Shown here: positions 4,863 to 22,256 of the stretch, in pieces
Numbering within the stretch: the stretch's first letter is position 1
Layout: every line of letters begins with the position of its first letter
Assembly (NCBI GenBank): GCA_947626045.1
Contig: CANQQS010000011.1
Coordinates: 1 to 33,985, forward strand
Direction of reading: 5' to 3'
Length of the DNA stretch: 33,985 nt
Source of the DNA: an uncultured Clostridia bacterium
GTDB lineage: Bacteria; Bacillota; Clostridia; UBA1381
Program-made: the position numbers and the translations under genes
The notes under the pieces: model-generated
Told to the model about the DNA's origin: nothing
The model's input: the letters and a program-made list of their open reading frames with translations, nothing else
Database searches by the model: none

Positions 4863-6125
4863 CTATCCCAGACTGTAAAAATCATCGAAGAACGACGGGT
4901 ACGACACACACGCGCACGTTTCGTCGTCAAGCGTTGAAACGCCGTCGGCAAGCTGCGACAAAACGGTTAAGCTCATAGCCATTCTGTGGTCGCCGTACGT
5001 CTTAAAGTCAGCACCGTGAATAGACTTGCCGCCGTTTATAATCATACCGTCGTCCGTTTCGGTAATATCAACGCCGCACTTTGTAAACTCATCAACAACG
5101 GCACGTATTCTGTTCGTTTCCTTAACCTTCAATTCCTGCGCGTCCTTTATAACCGTCGCGCCTTCGGCAAAAACAGCCGCGACGGCGATAATCGGCAGCT
5201 CGTCGATAAGCCTCGGTATAATGTCGCCGCCTATCGTGACGGCGCGCAGCGAGCTTGACCTGACCGTAATATCCGCCGCGCTTTCACCCGCGCTCACACG
5301 CTCGTTTTCAACCGTTATATCCGCACCCATATCCTTCAAAACGTCAATAATACCCGTTCTCGTCGGATTTGTGCCGACATTTTTTATCGTGATTTCGCTA
5401 TTCGGCATAATCGAGCCGAGTACCATGAAAAACGCCGCCGATGAAATATCCCCGGGAACAACCACATCTGCCGCTGACAGCCTGTCCGTGGTTTTTACCG
5501 TAATATCAAGCCCGTCAACGCTTATATCCGCGCCCATCGCGCCGAGCATAAGCTCCGTATGGTCGCGTGATTTTTCGATTTCTCTCACAATCGTTACTCC
5601 TTCGGCGTACAGTCCGGCGAGAATAATCGCCGTTTTAACCTGTGCCGACGCCACCGGCATTTTGTAGTCTATGCCGTGCAGACGCGAGCCGTGTATATAA
5701 AGAGGACAGTATTCGTTCTCAATGTTCGCGCCCATCAGCGCGAGCGGCTTTGTGACGCGCCCCATGGGACGCTTGCATATCGAAGCGTCGCCCGTTATCT
5801 CCGTATCGAACGGCTGCGCCGACAGTATGCCGCACAAAAGGCGCGTGGTCGTGCCGCTGTTACCCGTATACAGCGTCTTTTCCGGCTTTACAAGACCGCG
5901 CATACCGTTGCCGCGCACGGTCACCCTGTCGCCGCGCGCGTCTATTTCAACTCCCATACTGCGGAAGCAGTCTATTGTGGAAAGACAGTCCGCTCCCGGT
6001 AAAAATCCCGTAATCTCCGTAACGCCGTCCGCAAGCGAACCGAGCATTACGGCGCGGTGTGATATTGACTTGTCGCCCGGCACAGTGAGTACGCCGCGCG
6101 CGCTTTTTAACTTCTTAATCTCCAT
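4863..6125 (-). CDS. aroA: 3-phosphoshikimate 1-carboxyvinyltransferase (EPSP synthase)
   Basis: MEIKKLKSARGVLTVPGDKSISHRAVMLGSLA, GNSGTTTRLLCGIL, ELPIIAVAA, YGDHRMAMSL; ATG 6125 with ggagg RBS (the 74-aa extension in the ORF track is not supported). Confidence 0.96.
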   Translation of the reverse strand: MEIKKLKSARGVLTVPGDKSISHRAVMLGSLADGVTEITGFLPGADCLSTIDCFRSMGVEIDARGDRVTVRGNGMRGLVKPEKTLYTGNSGTTTRLLCGILSAQPFDTEITGDASICKRPMGRVTKPLALMGANIENEYCPLYIHGSRLHGIDYKMPVASAQVKTAIILAGLYAEGVTIVREIEKSRDHTELMLGAMGADISVDGLDITVKTTDRLSAADVVVPGDISSAAFFMVLGSIMPNSEITIKNVGTNPTRTGIIDVLKDMGADITVENERVSAGESAADITVRSSSLRAVTIGGDIIPRLIDELPIIAVAAVFAEGATVIKDAQELKVKETNRIRAVVDEFTKCGVDITETDDGMIINGGKSIHGADFKTYGDHRMAMSLTVLSQLADGVSTLDDETCACVSYPSFFDDFYSLG

Positions 6126-22069: not shown

Positions 22070-22111
22070 TGTTCTTTTGTCCAATTCTGTATACTTGTAT
22101 CGAATGAATGC

Positions 22112-22140
22112 TTGACATATTTAACTTATTATGATATATT
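22112..22140 (+). promoter_or_regulatory. Sigma-A-type promoter of orphan small RNA
   Basis: TTGACA-17 nt-TATATT, seven nt before the structured region. Confidence 0.7.
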
Positions 22141-22146
22141 ATTTTT

Positions 22147-22222
22147 GATGAGGGTATCATCAGTGTTCGCCGCAGGCAATAGGAGCCTGCTTGAAAGAGG
22201 CTGATGTATATCTTCTTTTTTT
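22147..22222 (+). ncRNA. Candidate structured small RNA with intrinsic terminator, no known class assigned
   Basis: Nested stems GAGGGTAT/ATATCTTC (22150-22157/22208-22215), CATCAG/CTGATG (22158-22163/22201-22206), GCAGGC/GCCTGC (22172-22177/22185-22190), then T7; own promoter; no ORF. Confidence 0.55.
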
Positions 22223-22227
22223 ACACA

Positions 22228-22256
22228 AAAACGGCGGCTCATTCAGCCGCCGTTTT
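22228..22256 (-). terminator. Terminator of nfnAB operon
   Basis: aaaacggcggct-cattc-agccgccgtttt, symmetrical, just after the nfnB stop on the minus strand. Confidence 0.82.

Follow-up and report, generated by a model that had tools for sequence, protein, structure and literature searches.

A predicted small RNA gene of an uncultured Clostridia bacterium matches units antisense to MuF_C modules of phage effector genes

Results

The window analysed here is a 33,985-nt stretch of DNA from an uncultured Clostridia bacterium (contig CANQQS010000011.1 of assembly GCA_947626045.1), and it carries on its forward strand a predicted small RNA gene spanning 22112-22222 from promoter to terminator. The sigma-70 type promoter (22112-22140) consists of TTGACA (22112-22117), a 17-nt spacer, and TATATT (22135-22140), with a TG preceding the -10 box. 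Promoters throughout this study are matches to the consensus, scored out of 12, and this one scored 11/12. The putative RNA (22147-22222, predicted to start at about 22147) folds into a hairpin of about 70 nt with nested stems GAGGGTAT/ATATCTTC, CATCAG/CTGATG, and GCAGGC/GCCTGC, followed by seven Ts. In this fold, the two arms of the outer stem (22150-22164 and 22200-22215) enclose an apical hairpin, GCAGGC-AATAGGA-GCCTGC, with a variable stem and a 7-nt loop (22172-22190), and the T run of the intrinsic terminator was read from the sequence at 22216-22222. A preliminary description of this DNA, based on the letters alone, had reported the same promoter, nested stems, and seven Ts, which the consensus scan and the fold bore out. 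The stretch it had covered runs to 22256; the unit itself is 22112-22222, and 22228-22256 is a separate inverted repeat belonging to the opposing oxidoreductase operon, which encodes a glutamate-synthase small-subunit homolog and a FAD/NAD-binding partner. The fold z-score of -7.5 was calculated for 22147-22256, a range that takes in this adjacent terminator hairpin, and conservation and covariation give the RNA stronger support than this value. In a search of the window against Rfam 15, no family was found at the gathering threshold and E values up to 10 gave weak chance matches, none convincing, in line with the earlier failure to assign the RNA to a known family.

The RNA had been taken for an orphan, and its reality had been made to depend on conservation in sister genomes and on covarying pairs. 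Both are present, and the RNA is not alone. The window genome contains another copy with 84% identity at C41:14912-14997 (G, C, and L numbers are our labels for genomes, contigs, and loci). G011 carries a copy at the window's locus that is 98% identical over the unit, G010 and G013 carry copies at the locus of the second copy, and further copies were found in the sister genome G002 and in G030 and G026, which belong to other genera; many of the genomes compared are metagenome assemblies. The TTGAC of the -35 box, the -10 box, and the hairpin were kept in all seven units compared first, and the promoter stands at the corresponding place in all seven close relatives. In a seven-sequence alignment, 97.8% of pair cells were paired and six pairs had changed on both sides. 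The covariation score of this alignment was 0.311 compared with 0.166 in shuffles, none of 500 shuffles reached 0.311, and sliding the partner destroyed the signal. Many of the pair changes produce G-U pairs on the RNA strand that would be mismatches on the opposite strand, suggesting that the strand assigned to the window RNA is the correct one. One extra match to the apical motif in the window genome, with a single mismatch and the only such match inspected, had no unit around it.

At the window locus, the unit is present in two of the 16 genomes of the genus, namely the window genome (G000) and G011. G015 has an empty site, in which the downstream terminator follows almost directly after the shared upstream terminator; comparison of the orthologous intergenic regions placed the missing segment at approximately 22070-22226, with junctions read by eye. 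When G000 is compared with G011, no substitutions and two gap columns fall in the RNA (22147-22216), whereas the flanks are 86.7-88.8% identical in coding and 81-82% identical in intergenic sequence (11-19% diverged). Since about eight changes would be expected in the RNA at the 11% rate, selection or recent exchange appears to protect it. The second locus (G000:C41, G010:C16, G013:C2, G011:C27) sits just after a 554-aa LysM-like gene, and G015 is empty there as well. Its promoter and flanks are common to G000, G010, and G013, but the core of G013 is different; the unit found there in G011 differs throughout, with a core (GGTGTCTTCGCCGCTTGGCGACTTCCC) similar to another antisense unit, located in the polyvalent relic of G002. 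Since cores differ where promoter and flanks are common, exchange of cores between copies seems to have taken place. The surroundings of the second unit in G010:C16, G011:C27, and G013:C2 are crowded with palindromic intergenic repeats of the GGGCGGCCGATGACCGCCCCTACGG type and similar cassettes, which differ among the species.

G030, G002, and G026 have the unit inside polyvalent-type open reading frames (ORFs), on the antisense strand and precisely where the MuF_C domain ends. The Pfam match in G030 is MuF_C (PF18819, E = 5e-19), and the coding end over the unit reads ...YTKNNEDIHQLLSAGLQLPGAAADDTLINYNIPDDAEKVKYSMKEN there; the G002 gene is itself decayed. MuF-C belongs to the PBECR domains, a group of predicted RNases packaged and injected by phages (PMC5512222). 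The promoter, hairpin, and T run of the window match these MuF_C antisense units in both sequence and structure. In addition, a protein search with the G030 MuF_C domain detected a relic of MuF_C C-terminal coding sequence on the minus strand of the window (22102-22248, E = 3.2e-5), aligned over 49 residues and interrupted by one TGA and two TAA stops. No toxin gene flanks the window copy. Because its minus strand matches MuF_C coding sequence but carries three stops, the window unit is a free-standing descendant of such a unit. One option left by the preliminary description, a regulatory RNA that had lost its gene, is supported by the homologous units antisense inside MuF_C ORFs of relatives, by the broken frame in the window, and by the conservation of the RNA in G011.

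The MuF_C genes at L144 and L145, 36% identical to the query, have an antisense TTGACA-17-TATACT promoter at the corresponding place, together with an unrelated outer stem (in L144, AGCCGTTGTT pairs with GGCAGCGGCT), a T run, and an apical hairpin of the GGGCAATTGGAGCCC type, of which the apical hairpin of the window is a homolog. All ten loci with profile-found MuF_C genes from the class that lay above the family cut-off (L152-L160 and L169) were read, and all ten have the hairpin and an antisense promoter of 10-11/12; their stems, mostly read by eye, include apical GGGG/CCCC, GGAA/TTCC, and CATC/GATG around the 7-nt loop. An antisense promoter of at least 10/12 and the hairpin were thereby present in 12 of 12 MuF_C genes found by protein or profile. 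Nine of the ten profile loci were tested together with L144 and L145 (L158 adds the twelfth gene), and 11 of 11 had a promoter of at least 10/12, compared with 3.2 (about 29%) expected from synonymous-codon shuffling, a null that retains the protein, whose own motifs overlap the RNA signals. The outer stems differ in sequence without relationship between units, yet pair. An RNAalifold model built from 31 diverse units (R2) was set aside: it recovered the apical stem alone because the outer stems differ in register, and stems were instead compared with the folds of codon-shuffled ORFs. An antisense promoter of at least 10/12 accompanied five of eight PBECR3 domains that lie within polyvalent ORFs (0.9 expected) and two of 29 solo PBECR2/3 genes, and phage Mu gene F, where the domain stands at the gene end, had none.

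Other elements were seen in or near these gene classes. A second RNA type lies antisense after the PBECR3 domains of polyvalent ORFs at L471, L493, L494, L496, L497, and L499; these RNAs share a recurring CGTTTYGGRCGT-like hairpin, which solo PBECR genes do not have. In a decayed polyvalent region of G002 (L035, G002:C3), at least five antisense promoter-hairpin units with promoters of 10-11/12 occur within 1.7 kb (antisense positions 5169, 5845, 6199, 6411, and 6769), several of them at ENVKYS-type linkers after non-MuF_C domains. In three genomes (L161, L163, and L166), the 200 nt or so that follow solo PBECR2-like genes include a conserved segment of about 110 nt with GTGTGGTCGGTACGAAAT..ACCACCTC in it.

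An exact match to the apical word GGGCAATTGGAGCCC occurs in 85 viral contigs; these, together with the annotated phage and plasmid records, gave 75 GLQLP sites embedded in ORFs. For 38 non-redundant phage or plasmid units, chosen without the promoter as a selection criterion, the antisense fold was stronger than after codon shuffling (mean z -2.1); relative to that null, 34% compared with 9% had a promoter scoring 10/12 or more, and 61% compared with 33% had a T run of at least five. In the phage and plasmid records, the nested arrangement occurs in E. coli, Pasteurella, and Acinetobacter, and in an Opitutaceae plasmid the hairpin is accompanied by a weaker promoter. Of 5,426 complete E. coli genomes, 422 contain DNA resembling part of the phage segment. 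A scan of the genome collection that required TTGAC returned at least 118 stretches, some of them chance matches, and among the matches listed are Bacillota, Pseudomonadota, desulfobacteria, Acidobacteria, Nitrospira, Spirochaetia, and others. The matches at L009, L039, and L040 were rejected as chance blastn matches within other genes. A scan of viral contigs with the pattern GAGGNTATCATC..GGAGC gave 88 stretches, 80 of which were searched with the covariance model and found no support from it; generalising from the protein motif VKYS gave nine sites, too few to use. Four viral contigs (L178, L192, L200, and L239) have the LQLP/apical-hairpin segment tandemly duplicated inside the effector ORF, and in two others (L213 and L244) the sequence before the GLQLP unit shows no evident MuF_C domain, as though the RNA module had travelled by itself.

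Many of the scan matches combine near-perfect promoters, paired outer stems, and T runs without a long sense ORF; they were judged free-standing by ORF length, and pseudogenes or contig ends may be among them. Tandem arrays of three to six units with differing loops and stems were found in three Clostridia genomes (L275, 6400-7200; L308, 3480-4200; L315, 2940-3280), each unit having its own TTGACA-17-TATAAT-type promoter. The L315 array lies between a tRNA synthetase gene and apparent rplQ/rpoA (gene names read by eye), and the L275 array also contains a longer, unrelated hairpin RNA with a promoter of like style. The distance from the -10 box to the apical hairpin is mostly 30 or 33 nt, including in free-standing units; since these are multiples of three, descent from coding units would fit. 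Rfam 15 holds no family that matches the window or the units of 25 further loci, nested and free-standing.

Discussion

Our data are consistent with the window RNA being a domesticated antisense RNA by which the mRNA of a MuF_C-type effector was formerly, and may still be, silenced, a reading to which we give a probability of roughly one half. As the sequence shows, the RNA gene arose antisense at the 3' end of a MuF_C module (PBECR-type, a predicted RNase) in phage polyvalent-effector genes. In a lysogen, the nested RNA of about 75 nt most likely silences the effector mRNA, with pairing that probably begins at the 7-nt apical loop and would lead to RNase III-type cleavage or a block of translation. 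Housekeeping promoters would keep the RNA at a steady level, and late phage transcription would override it in lytic growth. In the window genome, the toxin gene has been lost and the promoter-hairpin-terminator unit retained as a stand-alone gene, whose putative transcript most likely acts in trans on MuF_C-type mRNAs of related elements; transcription, silencing, and this action in trans are inferences. The predicted duplex of the window RNA with the G030 MuF_C mRNA reaches -91.9 kcal/mol compared with a shuffled mean of -43, and that with the G026 mRNA -76.9 kcal/mol.

Several observations weigh against this proposal. The duplex with the G011 MuF_C mRNA was no better than chance, and G011 is one of the two genomes that carry the window unit. 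The window's own genome yielded no clear MuF_C gene. The protein motifs LQLP, a lysine-rich stretch, and DIVN/VKY overlap the apical loop, the T run, and the -35 box, and they explain part of the nested-unit signal. As its sole explanation they were rejected as insufficient, because the signals of promoter, fold, and T run drop on codon shuffling and the unit persists in free-standing copies that have no ORF.

The main rival to antisense silencing is a protein-binding RNA, in which the apical hairpin would bind and inhibit the MuF_C/PBECR nuclease as a type III-like antidote or decoy and the free-standing copies would be immunity RNAs. A short stem and 7-nt loop that persist while the stem sequence changes with compensation, stand-alone copies and arrays that retain the fold while loop and stem vary, and the prediction that MuF-C is an RNase or RNA-binding domain (PMC5512222) would all suit such binding. 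Nevertheless, an RNA antisense to the toxin module could be useful without protein binding, and the loop letters differ between orthologous stand-alone copies; we consider this explanation unlikely. The broken toxin frame and the presence of the unit in two of 16 genus members could also mean that a fragment of a MuF_C gene has left the window copy behind as a relic without function, its promoter and hairpin persisting by chance. We think this improbable, given that exactly the promoter-to-terminator unit is retained at two loci and in arrays elsewhere, that compensatory changes occur among stand-alone and nested copies, and that the 70-nt RNA has no substitutions relative to G011 while the flanks are 11-19% different, although recent exchange could mimic this last point.

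Rickettsia palindromic elements are in-frame palindromes within protein genes that also occur between genes, and the units might likewise be selfish or mobile palindromic DNA, comparable to these elements or to miniature inverted-repeat transposable elements, that inserts between genes and, in frame, into the effector ORFs of phages. Insertion would fit the two loci that are empty in G015, the tandem copies, and the GLQLP units of L213 and L244 outside evident MuF_C domains. Unlike the Rickettsia elements, the units keep an antisense promoter and terminator and their site is fixed after particular toxin domains, directly after MuF_C across phyla. Promoter spacing and T run are retained, and terminal repeats or a clear target duplication were not seen in the one empty-site comparison, with junctions read by eye; we regard mobility as distinctly improbable. 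Finally, a domesticated small RNA whose present targets are host mRNAs with no relation to phage effectors would agree with the stand-alone position beside housekeeping genes in the window and in the arrays L315, L264, and L304 (names by eye) and with the lack of a clear MuF_C target gene in the window genome, but the loop differs between sister copies, and this possibility seems very remote. A possible likeness of the loop to CsrA, tRNA-anticodon, or U-turn motifs was considered, and no claim here is built on it.

In type III toxin-antitoxin systems of the ToxIN type, a repeat-array RNA lies upstream of the toxin gene in one operon, and the RNA binds the toxin. The units described here share with them a structured RNA linked to a predicted RNase toxin and the existence of tandem copies, whereas each of our units has its own promoter and terminator, is antisense to the toxin, and in the window stands without a flanking toxin gene. 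The nested units are more like prophage type I toxin-antitoxin RNAs in being phage-encoded antisense RNAs with their own promoter and terminator, which are predicted from the sequence, in that they would hold a toxin silent in the lysogen, and in overlapping the toxin mRNA within MuF_C genes; the toxin gene of the window copy is absent. Prophage type I examples include CD0977.1-RCd11 and relatives of C. difficile (PMC7699646) and, according to a passage of PMC5576092, RalR/RalA. The partner is not the small, usually hydrophobic peptide of type I systems, which in C. difficile has 34-47 aa (PMC7699646), but a predicted RNase domain in long ORFs. The setting also differs from that of type I RNAs: the MuF_C-partner RNA gene sits within the reading frame of a large virion-type effector, where one domain ends, and stand-alone genes descend from it. 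Silencing by the RNA is our proposal. The hosts of the nested units are the polyvalent and MuF polymorphic-toxin phage genes (PMC5512222, PMC5576092), with which they have the MuF_C/PBECR domains in common, and a word search of these two papers found no mention of antisense or small RNAs for such genes. Structured RNAs have been catalogued by comparative genomics, gut bacteria included (PMC8040213, PMC2864571), and intergenic copies might stand unnamed in such catalogues, whose supplements could not be read. No paper describing the RNA was found in a literature search of incomplete coverage, and an unnamed earlier listing is possible.

Antisense control of toxins is known; RNA genes nested in polyvalent-effector toxin modules, with free-standing arrays, would be a new form of it. 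These nested genes suggest a widespread and hitherto undescribed silencing of injected phage toxins. A bolder and doubtful generalisation is that phage polyvalent toxin modules across bacteria are dual-coded, each with its own antisense RNA gene, and that bacteria have repeatedly captured the units as stand-alone, diversifying RNA genes and tandem arrays, which would shield them from toxins brought in by phages and conjugative elements. A conserved RNA gene on the opposite strand of the toxin module would be a direct answer to how a lysogen survives its own packaged and injected MuF/polyvalent toxins. It would also be a clear case of dual coding, in which the end of a protein domain and a structured RNA with promoter and terminator are kept together across phyla, and the free-standing descendants may be a form of host RNA defence.
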